A stretch of DNA of 11,742 nucleotides from Hyphomicrobiales bacterium (GTDB lineage: Bacteria; Pseudomonadota; Alphaproteobacteria; Rhizobiales; Beijerinckiaceae): contig JAQGJO010000184.1 in the NCBI GenBank assembly GCA_028290595.1, positions 1-11,742 of the forward strand, read 5' to 3'. Position numbers and translations under genes: made by a program. Shown in pieces: positions 2,591 through 9,022 of the stretch. The notes beneath the pieces are model-generated. The model was not told where the DNA came from, ran no database searches, and saw only the letters and a program-made list of their open reading frames with translations. The stretch's first letter is position 1. The number at the start of each line of letters is the position of its first letter.

Positions 2591-3493
2591 ATGTCCAACA
2601 ACGACCTCGTTCACGACCGCACGCGCCTCGCCTCCGGCGATCTGCAGCAGGTGTCGCCCCTGGTGCGCCGCCTCATCGCGCCCAATCCCTCGCCGTTCAC
2701 CTTCACCGGCACCTGCACTTATATCGTGGGGCGAGGTAAAGTTGCGGTCGTCGATCCGGGCCCCGAGAGCGAGGATCAGCTTGCCGCCATCCTCAAGGCG
2801 GTCGCCGGCGAGACCGTCAGCCATATCGTCGTCACCCATACCCATCGCGACCATTCGCCCGGCGCCCGCGCCCTGAAGGCTGCGACAGGCGCCAAGATTT
2901 ATGGTTGCGCCCGCCACGTGCCCATCGAAAACGATGCTTCGGGCCGCCTCGACGCCAGCCATGATCTTGATCATGTGCCCGATCATGAAATGCACGACGG
3001 CGATCGACTGGAGGGCGCGGACTTCAGTCTTGCTGCGGTGCACACGCCCGGCCATGCCTCTAATCATCTATGTTTCGCGCTGCCGCAGGAAAATGCGCTG
3101 CTGTCGGGCGATCATGTCATGGCCTGGTCGACGACCATCGTCGCGCCGCCCGACGGCTCCATGCATGACTATATGAAATCGCTGGATAAATTGCGTGCCC
3201 GCGACGATGCCGTTTACTGGCCCGGACACGGCGGCCCCGTCCTTGAGCCGCACCGTTATGTGCGGGCACTGGCGCATCATCGCCGCCAGCGCGAGGTGTC
3301 CATCCTCAACCGGCTCGCCGCCGGCGATACCGGCATTGCCACCATCGTCGAGAATATTTACGAAGGGCTCGATCCGCGCCTGAAGCCGGCAGCCGCCCTT
3401 TCGGTGCTCGCTCATATGGAAGACATGGTCAATCGCGGTGTCGTGGTCTGTGAGGGCCCGGCCACTCTGGTGGCGAATTACCGGAAACCTTGA
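2591..3493 (+). CDS. MBL-fold metallo-hydrolase, LACTB2-like
   Basis: Predicted 300-residue soluble binuclear-zinc hydrolase. The metal ligands of the metallo-beta-lactamase fold are all present: HTHRDH at residues 83-88, H155 in HTPGH, D174 in SGDH and H213 in PGHGG. After the fold comes a helical C-terminal part (about residues 225-300, from HHRRQRE to LAHMEDMVNRGVVV) resembling the winged-helix domain of LACTB2-type proteins. That type includes an endoribonuclease, but the bacterial members mostly lack assigned substrates, so no reaction is given. Residues 124-136 are unusually rich in His and Asp (HDLDHVPDHEMHD). The start at 2591 gives MSNNDLVHDR; it has no Shine-Dalgarno. The gene sits 290 bases before the predicted Pls-like synthetase start and could be transcribed with it, but no functional link is shown. 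Confidence 0.9.
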   Translation: MSNNDLVHDRTRLASGDLQQVSPLVRRLIAPNPSPFTFTGTCTYIVGRGKVAVVDPGPESEDQLAAILKAVAGETVSHIVVTHTHRDHSPGARALKAATGAKIYGCARHVPIENDASGRLDASHDLDHVPDHEMHDGDRLEGADFSLAAVHTPGHASNHLCFALPQENALLSGDHVMAWSTTIVAPPDGSMHDYMKSLDKLRARDDAVYWPGHGGPVLEPHRYVRALAHHRRQREVSILNRLAAGDTGIATIVENIYEGLDPRLKPAAALSVLAHMEDMVNRGVVVCEGPATLVANYRKP

Positions 3494-3783
3494 TATGAAA
3501 CCGTAATACGAATTGGATAGTTGGTGCTGTTGCGCCTATTCATGTCGCGTTCAGGACATTGTGGTCATTTCTTCTCCCTTACGACGCAGCCCGACATGAG
3601 TCGGATCGACCGGAAACGGGCCGCGCGGGAGAAGGGACTGCCGCCATGGATCGCGTCGCTCGGCCGGAAGACTGGATCGATGGAAGTTCTCCTCGTCCCG
3701 GTCGTGACCGGCAGATTTCTCCCCGTTCGGGCAAACATCCTATGGCCATTGGCGCCGATCAGACATATCGCGTTTCCGACACC
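3494..3783 (+). other. Gap before the synthetase gene, start uncertain
   Basis: 290 bases between the hydrolase stop and the preferred synthetase start. The synthetase frame stays open back to TTG 3559, with in-frame ATGs at 3646 and 3742. The 3646 start has the best Shine-Dalgarno (GGGAGAAGGG ending 9 bases before it), but codons from 3646 to 3783 have about half G/C at third positions, unlike the gene body, and the peptide shows no family resemblance. The gap also holds a palindrome at 3698-3711. I see no convincing sigma-70 promoter and no terminator hairpin with a T-run. Confidence 0.5.
3698..3711. repeat. 14-bp palindrome CCGGTCGTGACCGG
   Basis: Two perfect 6-base arms (CCGGTC and GACCGG) flank a central GT. 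The 2-base loop is too tight for a good RNA hairpin, so a protein-binding site is more likely than a terminator. It lies 31 bases before ATG 3742 and 73 before ATG 3784, which would suit an operator if translation starts at either. If the true start is 3646 it is simply coding sequence. Confidence 0.4.
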
Positions 3784-6700
3784 ATGCTGACTGAGACTTT
3801 GCCTTCCCTTGCCGGGCCTTCCGCTGCCGAGCCTTCTCCAGGCGAGCCTTCCCTTGGGTTGCCGCCTTTGGCCGTCCTGCACGGCGATGCACGGCCGGAT
3901 CTCATTCGCGACGAGTTGCTGGGCGAGATCTTTGCCGCCACCGCGCGCGCGTTTCCGACCCGCCCCTGCATGACGTCGGGCACGCGGGTGCTCAGCTATC
4001 GCGAGGTCGATCGCGAAGCCGAGCGGGTGGCGCACGGTCTGCTGCACTACGGCGCCAAGCCGGGCGCTGTCGTTGGCTTGTGGATGGCGCGCGGCATCGA
4101 TCTTCTGATCGCGCAGATCGCCATCGTGCGCACCGGCGCCGCCTTCCTGCCGTTCGATGCGGATGTGCCGGCGGAGCGGGTTGCCGAATGCCTGGCCGAT
4201 TGCGGCGCCGCTGCGCTCCTCACCGATAACGCGCGGTTCGAAAAGCTCGGCGCGTTCCAGACCTGCTCCCTGCTGCGCGACAGCGATTTTGCCGACGACG
4301 ATCACGCCGACCCGGTCGATGCCCGCGCGCTCGGCTGCACGCCCGACCATGCGGCTTATATGATCTATACGTCGGGTTCGACAGGCAAGCCCAAGGGCAT
4401 CGTCATCTCCCAGCGCAACATCTGCCACTACCTGCGCGCGGCCAACGAGATCTATGGCATTGGCCAGGACGACGTGATGTTCCAGGGCGCTTCGCTCGCC
4501 TTCGATCTGTCGATGGAAGAGATCTGGATTCCCTATCTCGCCGGCGCATCGCTGTTCGTCGCCACGCCCGAGATCATGGGCGAGGCCGAGCGTCTGCCGG
4601 ATGTGATGGAAGCCCACGGCATCACAATTCTCGACACCGTGCCGACCCTGCTCGCCATGCTGCCGCGCGACATCACCACCTTGCGTGTTATCATTCTGGG
4701 CGGCGAAGCCTGCCCGCCGGTGATCGCCGAGCGCTGGTGCAAGCCCGGCCGCCATGTCTTCAATTCTTATGGACCGACTGAGACCACCGTCGTCGCCACC
4801 GTCGCCGAAGTAAAGCCCGGCGAGGCCGTGACCATCGGCAAGCCGATCCCGAATTATACCTGCTACGTCGTCGGCGATGCGCTCGAACTCCTCGCCTTTG
4901 GCGTTGAAGGCGAACTGCTGATCGGCGGCCCCGGTGTCGCCAAGGGCTATCTCAACCGTGACGAACTGACGGCGGAAAAATTCATCGCCAATCCCTTCGC
5001 CGGCAGCGGCAGCGATCCGGTGCTCTACCGCTCGGGCGACGCGGTCCTGCTCGACGCCAACAGCGATCTTCTGTTTCGCGGACGCATCGACGATCAGGTG
5101 AAGATCCGCGGTTTCCGCGTCGAGCTTGGCGAGATCGAGGCGAAGCTCGCACATATGCCCAACATCGCCCAGGTGACGGTCGTCCTGCGCAACGACGACG
5201 GCCTGGATCAACTCGTCGCCTTCATCGTGCCGGAGCATCGCGAGGCGCATGTTGACGCCAAGGCCCTGCGCAAGGAGCTGCAGCGCGTTCTGCCGATCTA
5301 TATGATCCCGTCTCGCTTCGAGGTCCTGACCGAACTGCCGCGCCTGTCGTCGGGAAAGGCCGATCGCAATCGCCTCAGGAAACTGCAGCTTTCGGTGCAG
5401 GAATTCGTGCGCGAGGAGCAGCAGGAACCGGCGACACCGACGCAGGCCAAACTCCTGGCTGCGGCGCAGACGGTTCTGCCGCCGCAGCCGATCGCCTTCG
5501 ACGCGGATTTCTTCACCGACCTCGGCGGCCATTCGCTGCTGGCGGCGAAATTCGTCTCGGCCGTGCGGCTGACGCCCGACCTTGCCTCGATCACCTTGCA
5601 GGATGTCTATGCGGCGCGGACGCTAGAGGCGATCGGCGCCATTCTCGACGAGCGCCTGATCCATGCGGTGGACAGGCCCGATCTCACCTTCACGCCGGCG
5701 CCGGCGCTGCGGCGTTATCTCTGCGCGGCTGCCCAGGCCGTCGCCATGCCGTTCATTCTGGCATTGGCGACAGCGCAATGGCTCGGCGTGTTCGTCAGCT
5801 ACATGCTGCTGACCAGCGTCTCGGCCTCGCTGTTCGATGAAATCACCTCGCTGCTGTTCGTCTATGCCTGCATCAACGTCGCGACGGTGTTTTTCGCGAT
5901 CGCGGTCAAATGGCTGGTGCTGGGTCGCGCCAAGCCCGGCCGCTATCCGCTGTGGGGCGTCTATTATTATCGCTGGTGGCTGTCGCAGCGTTTTCTCGCC
6001 CTGACCCATATGAAGTTCTTCCAGGGCTCGCCGGTGATGCGGCTCTACCTTCTGGCGCTGGGCGCCAAGATCGGCAAAAACGCGTCGGTCGGCGAAGCCG
6101 ACATCGGCGCACCCGATCTGTTGATCATCGGTGAGGGCGCCAGCATCGGCGGCAAAGTGAAGTTCGCCAACGCGCGCGTCGAGGGCAATGAACTCGTCAT
6201 CGGTATTATCGACATTGGTGCCGACGCTTATGTTGGCACGTCCTGCGCCATCGAGAATGATACGCAGATCGGCGCTCATTCGGAATTGCGCGACCTGACG
6301 TCGGTGATCGCAGGCACGCGCATCGGCGCCGCCGAAATCTGGGACGGCTCGCCGGCCCGCAAGGTCGGCACCGTCGATGTCGCCGCACTGGAAGAGCCCG
6401 CCACCGCCAGCAGAGCGCGCAAAGGCATGCTCATGACGGCCTATCTCGCCCTGTTGCTGATCATGCCGCCGCTCGGCCTGTTGCCGATCTTTCCGGCGTT
6501 CTGGATCTTCGACCGGATCGACGACTGGATTTCGCTCGGCTCCGGCGACCGCACCATCTATCTGCTGTCGATTCCGTTGATGGCCTGGCCGACGGCCTTC
6601 GTCATGGTCATTGTGACTGTCGGGCTGATCGCAATCTTCCGCTGGATCGTTCTGCCGCGCGTGCGAGAGGGCAAATATTCGGTCTATTCCGGCTTCTACC

Positions 6701-7833
6701 TGCGCAAATGGATCGTCGCGCTGGCCACCGAAATCACACTGGAAACCCTGTCGTCGCTCTACGCCACCATCTACATGCGCACCTGGTATCGTTTGATGGG
6801 CGCCAAGATCGGCAAGGACGCGGAGATTTCGACCAATCTGTCCGGCCGTTACGATCTCGTCGAGATCGGCGAGAAATGCTTCATCGCCGACGAAGTAGTA
6901 CTCGGCGACGAGGATGTCCGGCGCGGCTGGATGTCTCTCTACAAGGTGAAGACCGGCGCGCGCGTGTTCGTCGGCAATGATGCGGTGGTGCCGGTCGGTT
7001 CTTCGATCCCGACAGGCGCGCTCATTGGCATCAAGTCGAAACCGCCGGCCAATGACGAGATGGAGGCGGGCGGCACCTGGTTCGGTTCGCCGCCGATCAA
7101 GCTGCCGGTGCGCCAGCGCTTCGACACCGGCTCGAACTGGACTTACGAGCCGCCGCGCTGGAAGAAGTTCATGCGCGCCGTGTTCGAGGCCGTGCATATT
7201 TCCCTGCCGACCATGTTGTTCATCACCTTCGGCACCTGGGCGGTCGAGGCGCTGGCGCCGCCGCTCTACGCCGGCGAGTGGTTCAACCTGTTCGCGCTGT
7301 TCGTGCTCTGCTCGTGCCTGATTTCCTGTGCCATGATGGCCGTCGTGATCGGCATGAAATGGCTGACCATGGGCCGCTACGAACCCGTCACCATGCCGAT
7401 GTGGTCGTGGTGGGCCATGCGCACCGAGGCGGTGGCCGTCATCTACTGGGGCCTGGGCGCCCGCGTCCTGCTCGACCATATGCGCGGCACGCCGTTCCTG
7501 CCCTGGACCTTGCGGTTGCTGGGGGCGAAATTCGGCCAGGGCGTCTTCATGGACTCGACCGACATCACCGAGTTCGACTGCATCAAGGTCGGCGATCATT
7601 GTGCCATCAACGCTGGTTCGGCCCTGCAGACCCATCTTTACGAGGACCGGGTGATGAAAGTGGGCCGGGTCGAGCTCGGCACGGGCGTGACCGTGGGCGC
7701 CGGCTCGACGGTGCTTTACGATACCTGCGTCAATGATTTCGCCCAACTCGGCCCGCTGACGATCGTCATGAAGGGCGAGACGATTCCCGGTAACACCGCC
7801 TGGTGGGGCGCGCCCGCCAACCGCATCGGGTAA
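3784..7833 (+). CDS. Pls/PosA-family non-ribosomal peptide synthetase
   Basis: Predicted 1349-residue membrane enzyme (Streptomyces Pls is about 1320). The family activates one amino acid and polymerises it through side-chain amide bonds without ribosomes. Adenylation domain, about 55-530: YTSGSTGKPKG 195-205, FDLSMEEIW 240-248, NSYGPTE 327-333, YRSGD 415-419, KIRGFRVE 440-447, catalytic K525. Carrier domain: LGGHSL with phosphopantetheine Ser584. Then three repeats of two membrane segments plus a hexapeptide beta-helix: segments near 645-670 and 688-712, helix 759-860; 883-905 and 928-955, helix 1004-1110; 1136-1160 and 1168-1195, helix 1246-1349. There is no classical HHxxxDG condensation domain and no thioesterase. 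By-eye pocket residues are D241, L242, E245, D284, I303, L305, S328, V336, V337 and K525. E245 and D284 suggest a basic amino acid such as lysine or ornithine; the product is inferred. ATG 3784 was chosen because upstream codons look non-coding; 3646 and 3742 are alternatives. Activity needs a phosphopantetheinyl transferase, not seen here. Confidence 0.9.
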   Translation: MLTETLPSLAGPSAAEPSPGEPSLGLPPLAVLHGDARPDLIRDELLGEIFAATARAFPTRPCMTSGTRVLSYREVDREAERVAHGLLHYGAKPGAVVGLWMARGIDLLIAQIAIVRTGAAFLPFDADVPAERVAECLADCGAAALLTDNARFEKLGAFQTCSLLRDSDFADDDHADPVDARALGCTPDHAAYMIYTSGSTGKPKGIVISQRNICHYLRAANEIYGIGQDDVMFQGASLAFDLSMEEIWIPYLAGASLFVATPEIMGEAERLPDVMEAHGITILDTVPTLLAMLPRDITTLRVIILGGEACPPVIAERWCKPGRHVFNSYGPTETTVVATVAEVKPGEAVTIGKPIPNYTCYVVGDALELLAFGVEGELLIGGPGVAKGYLNRDELTAEKFIANPFAGSGSDPVLYRSGDAVLLDANSDLLFRGRIDDQVKIRGFRVELGEIEAKLAHMPNIAQVTVVLRNDDGLDQLVAFIVPEHREAHVDAKALRKELQRVLPIYMIPSRFEVLTELPRLSSGKADRNRLRKLQLSVQEFVREEQQEPATPTQAKLLAAAQTVLPPQPIAFDADFFTDLGGHSLLAAKFVSAVRLTPDLASITLQDVYAARTLEAIGAILDERLIHAVDRPDLTFTPAPALRRYLCAAAQAVAMPFILALATAQWLGVFVSYMLLTSVSASLFDEITSLLFVYACINVATVFFAIAVKWLVLGRAKPGRYPLWGVYYYRWWLSQRFLALTHMKFFQGSPVMRLYLLALGAKIGKNASVGEADIGAPDLLIIGEGASIGGKVKFANARVEGNELVIGIIDIGADAYVGTSCAIENDTQIGAHSELRDLTSVIAGTRIGAAEIWDGSPARKVGTVDVAALEEPATASRARKGMLMTAYLALLLIMPPLGLLPIFPAFWIFDRIDDWISLGSGDRTIYLLSIPLMAWPTAFVMVIVTVGLIAIFRWIVLPRVREGKYSVYSGFYLRKWIVALATEITLETLSSLYATIYMRTWYRLMGAKIGKDAEISTNLSGRYDLVEIGEKCFIADEVVLGDEDVRRGWMSLYKVKTGARVFVGNDAVVPVGSSIPTGALIGIKSKPPANDEMEAGGTWFGSPPIKLPVRQRFDTGSNWTYEPPRWKKFMRAVFEAVHISLPTMLFITFGTWAVEALAPPLYAGEWFNLFALFVLCSCLISCAMMAVVIGMKWLTMGRYEPVTMPMWSWWAMRTEAVAVIYWGLGARVLLDHMRGTPFLPWTLRLLGAKFGQGVFMDSTDITEFDCIKVGDHCAINAGSALQTHLYEDRVMKVGRVELGTGVTVGAGSTVLYDTCVNDFAQLGPLTIVMKGETIPGNTAWWGAPANRIG

Positions 7834-7891: not shown

Positions 7892-7900
7892 TGAGTGCTC

Positions 7901-9022
7901 ATGTCACATAATACGTTCGGCCATTTATTCCGCGTCACGACCTTTGGCGAGAGCCACGGGCCGCTGATCGGCTGCGTCGTCGACGGCTGCCCGCCGCTGA
8001 TCGAGCTGACCGAGGCCGACCTGCAGGGCTATCTCGACAAGCGCCGGCCCGGCCAGTCGCGGTTCACCACCCAGCGCCAGGAGCCCGACCAGGTCCGTAT
8101 CGTGTCCGGCGTCATGAGCCAAGAATCCGGCGGGCGCCAGATCACCACCGGGACGCCGATTGGCCTGCTCATCGACAATGTTGACCAGCGCTCCAAGGAT
8201 TACGGCGAAATCCGCCAGCAATACCGCCCCGGCCATGCCGATTTCACCTATGACGCCAAATACGGCATCCGCGACTATCGCGGCGGCGGCCGCTCGTCGG
8301 CGCGCGAGACGGCGATGCGGGTTGCCGCCGGCGGTATCGCCCGCAAGGTGATCGCCGGCGTCACGGTCCGCGGCGCGCTCGTGCAGATGGGGCCGCACGG
8401 CATCGATCGCGCCAATTGGGACTGGAACGAGATCGACAACAACCCGTTCTTCTGCCCCGATGCGAAGGCGGCAGCACTTTGGGAGACCTATCTCGACGGC
8501 GTGCGCAAGGCCGGCTCGTCCTGCGGAGCGGTGATCGAGATCGCCGCCGAGGGCGTGCCGCCCGGCTGGGGCGCGCCGATCTATGGCAAGCTCGACGCCG
8601 AAATCGCCTCCGCCTTCATGTCGATCAACGCCGTCAAGGGCGTCGAGATCGGCGATGGCATGGCGGCAGCCGCCCTGTCGGGCGAGGAGAACGCCGATGA
8701 AATGCGCGCCGGCAATACCGGTCTGCCGCATTTTCTCTCCAACCATGCCGGCGGCATTCTCGGCGGCGTCTCCACCGGCCAGCCGGTGGTGGCACGCTTC
8801 GCGGTCAAGCCGACATCCTCTATTCTGACCAACCGCCACTCGGTCGATCGTTTCGGCGCCGAGGTCGAAATCCGTACCAAGGGCCGTCACGATCCGTGCG
8901 TCGGCATCAGAGCCGTGCCGGTCGGCGAAGCCATGATGGCCATCGTTCTGGCGGATGCGTTTCTGCGGCACCGCGCGCAAACCGGCGCGCCGGATGCGCG
9001 CTGGCCGTTTCCGCGTTCATAG
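7901..9022 (+). CDS. aroC: Chorismate synthase
   Basis: Last step of the shikimate pathway: converts 5-enolpyruvylshikimate-3-phosphate to chorismate using reduced FMN, in the cytosol. The 373-residue product has the usual length and the family signatures: GESHG at 16-20, [13 protein letters not shown] from residue 125 and [17 protein letters not shown] from residue 329. ATG 7901 gives [20 protein letters not shown], the standard N-terminus, and follows GGTGAG by 5 bases; the in-frame GTG at 7895 would add two residues and overlap that site. It is the first gene of a tight plus-strand group, with folP starting 22 bases after its stop. Chorismate is the source of p-aminobenzoate, used by FolP, which makes the grouping metabolically sensible. 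Regulation may act through the promoter and dyad just upstream. Confidence 0.97.

Follow-up and report, generated by a model that had tools for sequence, protein, structure and literature searches.

A DLED-type member of the Pls/PosA synthetase family in an alphaproteobacterial housekeeping region

An 11,742-nt stretch from a Hyphomicrobiales bacterium (contig JAQGJO010000184.1; hereafter 'the window', by which the whole stretch is meant) carries at positions 3784-7833, on the (+) strand, a gene whose product is, to judge from its sequence, a complete member of the known Pls/PosA family of nonribosomal peptide synthetases (NRPSs). We read the product, with a probability of about 0.75, as a membrane-bound, single-module NRPS-like enzyme that would make a short, isopeptide-linked cationic homopolymer of a basic diamino acid. 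By sequence comparison its nearest characterised enzyme is PosA, the delta-poly-L-ornithine synthetase of Acinetobacter baumannii (PMC10522769; P0121 and locus L083 in our sample), to which it is 41% identical in an alignment covering 97% of the query. The family, its presence in such bacteria and the class of adenylation code found here are all on record (see below), and none of them is therefore new; what the analysis adds is the placement of the clade beside PosA, the finding that it is widely carried and often syntenic, and the occurrence of a single invariant histidine among the three units of the terminal domain.

Architecture of the synthetase

The reading frame, recognised by profile searches and open reading frame (ORF) analysis, is intact and specifies 1349 residues from the ATG at 3784, from which residues are numbered; it is open upstream to 3559, and alternative starts are possible at 3742, 3646 and 3559. 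The NCBIfam model TIGR02353 ('Pls/PosA family non-ribosomal peptide synthetase') matches at 5731-7818 with 607.5 bits (curated cut-off 423.1) and spans profile positions 2-695 of 695, a match far stronger than expected by chance. Ahead of this terminal polymerisation domain are a single adenylation (A) domain and a single carrier (peptidyl carrier protein, PCP). The A domain scores 394.5 bits with TIGR01733 (cut-off 317.4) and is formed by a core, PF00501 (residues 50-390; 3931-4953), which holds code residues 1-9, and a C-terminal subdomain, PF13193 (residues 450-525; 5131-5358), which contains Lys525. The carrier, PF00550 (residues 557-619; 5452-5640), has its serine, Ser584 (5533-5535), within a GGHS motif, and all three Pfam models score above their own cut-offs. 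No match to a condensation (PF00668) or thioesterase (PF00975) domain was found in the synthetase at E<=0.001 with Pfam. Hydropathy and an AlphaFold2 model of residues 545-1349 (mean pLDDT 87.5, pTM 0.88) predict six hydrophobic helices in three pairs, at residues 641-713 (5704-5922), 877-956 (6412-6651) and 1125-1196 (7156-7371), with a left-handed beta-helix unit after each pair: unit 1 at residues 745-865 (6016-6378), unit 2 at 1006-1107 (6799-7104) and unit 3 at 1247-1344 (7522-7815). The assignments of an initial annotation made from the letters alone (Pls/PosA family, carrier at Ser584, no standard condensation or thioesterase domain, three units of membrane pair plus beta-helix) were thus recovered, the last as a prediction.

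The same overall architecture is found in PosA (PMC10522769). Likewise, Pls, the epsilon-poly-L-lysine synthetase of Streptomyces albulus, has A and carrier (T) domains and three tandem acetyltransferase-related domains with six transmembrane (TM) helices (PMC8117764; PMC8506220), although its A domain matches that of the window more weakly (263 bits), and the synthetases of poly-diaminopropionate and poly-diaminobutyrate (PDAP and PDAB) have an A domain, a PCP and three tandem soluble domains among TM helices, of which seven were counted (PMC4668381). It is highly improbable that the gene is decayed or silent: the frame, the code, the carrier serine and the histidine motif described below are all intact, and the protein is 92% identical, over residues 1-1349, to that of the closest named genome, Roseiarcaceae bacterium H3SJ34-1 (locus L001).

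The terminal domain and its invariant histidine

Conservation was assessed in an alignment of 347 rows, formed by the window protein, 78 of loci L001-L088 (eight with frames shorter than 1250 residues were left out, as were L081-L082, repeats of L061 and L001), 240 database proteins and 28 of the 29 loci L089-L117 (L099, a fragment, was omitted; the remaining ones are cut at the locus edge). From residue 560 onward, identity reaches 99% or more at 47 positions, His1284 being the sole histidine among them. It lies in unit 3, in the motif QTHLYEDRVMK (residues 1282-1292; 7627-7659), of which Gln1282 is kept in 347/347 rows and His1284, Glu1287 and Lys1292 in 346, with one gap. The motif, QTHLxEDRxMK, is common to PosA (QTHLFEDRIMK), and relatives with a Phe-type code retain the histidine within a variant (QAHSLEEGAFK and similar). 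When the three units of 46 sequences were aligned with one another, the position was His in all 46 copies of unit 3, Ala or Val in 40/46 copies of unit 1 and Glu in 41/46 copies of unit 2. Since the invariant histidine occurs in the third unit only, a single active site is proposed; both the conservation and the model suggest that the terminal domain has one catalytic site, at unit 3, and units 1 and 2 are proposed to be structural or to bind substrate. The three tandem domains of Pls were reportedly mutated by Kito in 2013, and the catalytic residue of the terminal domain may already be published there; those passages of the main text of PMC10522769 that deal with histidine, catalysis or hexapeptides name no such residue.

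In the mechanism that we propose, the A domain would adenylate a basic diamino acid, most likely L-ornithine and otherwise lysine, 2,4-diaminobutyrate (Dab), an Arg-like or another monomer; the carrier would receive its phosphopantetheine arm from a transferase with its gene in another part of the genome, and the activated monomer would be loaded onto Ser584. The terminal domain would form a pseudo-trimer of acetyltransferase-like beta-helices on the three membrane-helix pairs, in which a side-chain amine, whether on a further monomer or on the growing chain, would attack the aminoacyl thioester, with His1284 as the putative catalytic base at the single site, to yield the short isopeptide-linked cationic homopolymer.

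The structure matches listed, which concern mainly unit 1, show that the terminal units fold like acetyltransferases acting on sugars and small molecules; no structure matching the whole terminal domain was present among the best 50 of 590 Foldseek matches or among 50 VIA-align rows, the latter mostly covering unit 1 (model positions 172-325) and barely probing units 2 and 3. This likeness could also be accommodated by an aminoacyltransferase that decorates a surface lipid or glycan with a single diamino acid or a few of them and releases no free polymer, and the wide carriage of the gene in its family, often beside a housekeeping gene (see below), would be unusual for an antibiotic. However, the full-length characterised members that PMC10522769 names make free polymers, including the neighbouring PosA with the same histidine motif, and we regard such an activity as improbable.

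The adenylation code, phylogeny and candidate monomers

Alignment to PosA gave the code DLEDIGSVVK for the window protein (Asp241, Leu242, Glu245, Asp284, Ile304, Gly306, Ser328, Val336, Val337 and Lys525); as a control, the same columns gave DMEHNGTVSK for PosA, matching the published code (PMC10522769). Asp and Glu are present at code positions 1 and 3, as the rule in that paper demands. The window code does not match that of PosA, and at position 2, which tracks the chain length of the substrate (Phe for 2,3-diaminopropionate (Dap) or Dab, Met for ornithine, Ala for lysine; PMC10522769), Leu242 is found, whereas Pls has Ala and the PDAP/PDAB synthetases have Phe. Patel and Gulick (2023; PMC10522769) described DLEDIGTV(T/V/I)K as a unique signature found in archaea, rhizobia, Methylobacterium and others, and listed no assigned substrate for it; the window code agrees with this signature at 9/10 positions, with Ser replacing Thr at position 7. 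A non-alpha poly-amino acid (NAPAA) cluster of the same DLED class, with the code DLedLgTVvK (Leu and Thr at positions 5 and 7, against Ile and Ser in the window) and no product reported, is known from Bosea sp. NBC_00550 and seven other complete Bosea genomes (PMC10508160). In our alignment, a sample weighted towards relatives of the window and PosA, which served as queries, the code starts with DLED in 229 rows, with DM in 100, DF in 14 and DI in two, and two rows have no A domain; DLEDIGSVVK itself occurs in 162/347 rows and DLEDIGTVVK in 15/347. Phe- and Met-type labels are code-based here, and the name PosA comes from the source only for P0121 and some Acinetobacter relatives. A search of the open-access literature by titles and abstracts found no assay of a DLED-type enzyme.

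Two trees were built, one with FastTree from 75 rows (20 set by hand, the others added under a 72% identity cap) and one with IQ-TREE (LG+G4, short search) from 43 hand-chosen rows. In both, a branch with support 100 separates the DLED rows from all others, the PosA clade adjoins the DLED clade, also with support 100, and Phe-type rows lie outside the group formed by the two. In the FastTree run, L100 and L101 drew a warning about the place where their long branches join the other rows; without these rows, in the second tree, the DLED-PosA arrangement was unchanged. The trees put the window protein beside the PosA clade and not within it.

Given the Leu at position 2 and the nearness to PosA, L-ornithine is, tentatively and at somewhat short of an even chance, the likeliest monomer, the DLED pocket being then an alternative way to bind it. 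The M218A substitution in PosA left ornithine use nearly unchanged (PMC10522769). On the other hand, positions 4, 5, 7 and 9 of the code also differ from PosA. The side chains of Leu and Met are similar in size, so that the enzyme may make delta-poly-L-ornithine, a polymer already described. The isopeptide-linked basic homopolymer proposed by the initial annotation remains the best reading of the sequence, and the polymer may or may not be an undescribed one.

Position 9 is functionally important in PosA, where Glu221, Thr304 and Ser313 all matter and S313A causes a 183-fold loss (PMC10522769). It is a lesser but real possibility that the enzyme uses another monomer and makes an isopeptide polymer not described before: Asp at position 4 and Val at position 9 may leave room for lysine, Arg-like or other monomers, the code one residue away has no substrate assigned in PMC10522769, and a second acidic residue, Asp284 in the window, also occurs in Arg, Lys and some Orn codes (PMC12283262). 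Against this, our searches turned up no characterised enzyme with this code, and the negative charge for basic substrates may come from different code positions (PMC10522769).

Several observations weigh against the reading of the enzyme as a PosA-like homopolymer synthetase with ornithine as the likeliest monomer and one catalytic site. The window code is alike at 7/10 positions with an Orn/Lys code (DMEDVGSVDK), a Lys code (DGEDHGTVVK) and the Arg tendency D-A/V-E-D-I/V/L-G-A-V/I-T/D-K (PMC12283262), and with equal agreement the code cannot pick the monomer. The pocket has lost the hydroxyl of PosA Ser313 (now Val337) and gained Asp284, so that the substrate may differ from that of PosA. Met-type rows do not form one clade in either tree (three changes; L087, L095 and L098 fall outside), an odd residue composition was flagged for several rows, P0121 (PosA) included, and full-length S. 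albulus Pls is in neither tree, so that the trees do not address the lysine enzymes. A 4'-phosphopantetheinyl transferase (PPTase) gene was not found in the window. Finally, according to work cited in PMC4668381, Pls needs each of its three tandem domains; this is compatible with a single site if the other two units are structural.

Two relatives without an A domain (L122:9105-12452 and L123:7323-10457, both on the (-) strand, in genomes G012 and G118 of the order; the same proteins as L100 and L101) have the TIGR02353 domain fused to tandem carriers, with four carrier motifs in L122 and three in L123, and both keep the invariant histidine. They adjoin 2,3-diaminopropionate genes (sbnB above cut-off at both loci, sbnA above cut-off at L123 and only partial at L122), a partial C-A-T NRPS (L122) or a C-A-T-TE NRPS (L123; C, condensation; TE, thioesterase) and a TauD-family gene. 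The two systems possibly make a diaminopropionate-based product on a carrier array loaded in trans; a literature search near the topic found no such combination of carrier array and TIGR02353 domain.

Distribution, gene neighbourhood and inheritance

Homologues occur in named cultured strains, for example of Rhodoblastus acidophilus and Methylocella tundrae. Among 199 sampled genomes of the family to which L001 belongs, 154 have a match at E<=1e-50 and 133 a window-like copy or fragment (>50% identity); the matches in the other 21 are only distant family members (for example in G466, at 38%) or other NRPS A domains. In a sample of the order, 51/297 genomes exceed the TIGR02353 cut-off, all code types counted, and the gene was accordingly rejected as a core gene of the whole order. 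One genome, G433, has two window-like copies (C44 and C34), which share 59% and 57% identity with the window protein. The same order also holds a Phe-type kind, DFEALG[T/S]VTK (L089-L094, L096 and L097), which scores 790.7-945.2 bits with TIGR02353, against 607.5 for the window.

The setting between arginine, chorismate and folate genes, as originally described, holds: an ornithine carbamoyltransferase (OTC) gene, hslO (Hsp33), a gene for a 221-residue protein and one for a metallo-beta-lactamase (MBL)-fold hydrolase lie upstream in the window, and aroC, folP, folB and folK downstream, with an M15-like peptidase gene on the minus strand. The chorismate synthase gene aroC (7895-9022, (+); Pfam and tblastn) is the recurring downstream neighbour; it lies downstream on the same strand in 44/80 genome-contig loci, within 250 nt in 26, and is the first recurring downstream neighbour in 40/80, 71 of the loci having more than 1200 nt of downstream sequence. 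Distances between synthetases correlate with those between the AroC proteins (Mantel r 0.577, 0/5000 permutations as high; 40 rows, 39 loci and the window, in which both proteins are long enough). The frequent adjacency and this co-divergence suggest that the clade is vertically inherited; copies with 63-64% identity on Azospirillum plasmids indicate that some transfer, or moves between replicons, occur. As to a core cell-surface or stress role, suggested by the initial annotation, the breadth of the gene's occurrence in the family and its parallel divergence with AroC lend it indirect support, but the gene is not core in the order.

The other neighbours are less constant. OTC or Hsp33 was found only at L001 among the 80 loci (tblastn at E<=1e-6 against the flanking sequence retrieved, which was short for some loci), and OTC was rejected as a clue to the substrate. 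More common upstream are a histidine-phosphatase family gene (first, 33 loci) and an enoyl-ACP-reductase-like gene (second, 30 loci). These figures come from a census restricted to ORFs that recur between loci, with Pfam names taken from one representative per cluster; 70/80 loci had more than 1500 nt of upstream sequence. For the 221-residue protein (1867-2529, (+)), searches with Pfam and NCBIfam at E<=0.001 gave no match, and tblastn at E<=1e-6 found no relative in 88 loci. The MBL-fold hydrolase, which has a winged-helix domain and is encoded between this gene and the synthetase gene (2591-3493, (+)), touches 19 NCBIfam models without reaching the cut-off of any. Within the window, on which alone this was judged, no dedicated resistance, export or degradation gene is obvious.

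PF01648 has two matches in each of the genomes of L001 and L061, and in either genome one of these falls in a frame of 235 or 248 residues, the size of Sfp-type PPTases. In G001 and G002 a PPTase-like frame lies about 19 kb and 43 kb, respectively, from the synthetase gene, too far apart for a cluster, and clustering was rejected. Over the 199 family genomes, a PPTase was detected in 92/133 with the synthetase and in 12/66 without it (Fisher p 8e-12), a co-occurrence that is confounded by common descent, by how complete the genomes are and by how distant the query PPTase is, and that therefore lends weak support. In more distant relatives, a PPTase gene lies directly downstream of the synthetase gene on plasmids of Rhizobium sp. 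CCGE531 (L086) and Sphingomonas parapaucimobilis (L087), and P0224 (1545 residues), a PosA-type synthetase, has a C-terminal PPTase (ACPS) domain at residues 1434-1519 and may, from this arrangement, activate its own carrier; both fit the need for a holo-carrier.

Before PosA, bacterial polymers of this kind had been reported from actinomycetes only (PMC10522769), and their biological significance has been called unclear (PMC9606270). Epsilon-polylysine-like (NAPAA) clusters are present in almost all Methylobacterium genomes studied (PMC8561711). Unlike PosA, the window enzyme is alphaproteobacterial and encoded in a housekeeping region. That the product of the DLED clade is a cationic isopeptide polymer other than poly-ornithine, kept as a standing, vertically inherited component of Beijerinckiaceae-type bacteria with an envelope or stress function, and that it is made by a pseudo-trimeric terminal domain having one catalytic site in three units, is as a whole unlikely. 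With one histidine in three units, the question of how the terminal domain would join monomers becomes a point-mutation test, and a wide, often syntenic alphaproteobacterial clade that includes cultured strains is a tractable place to test for a role of these polymers beyond antibiosis.

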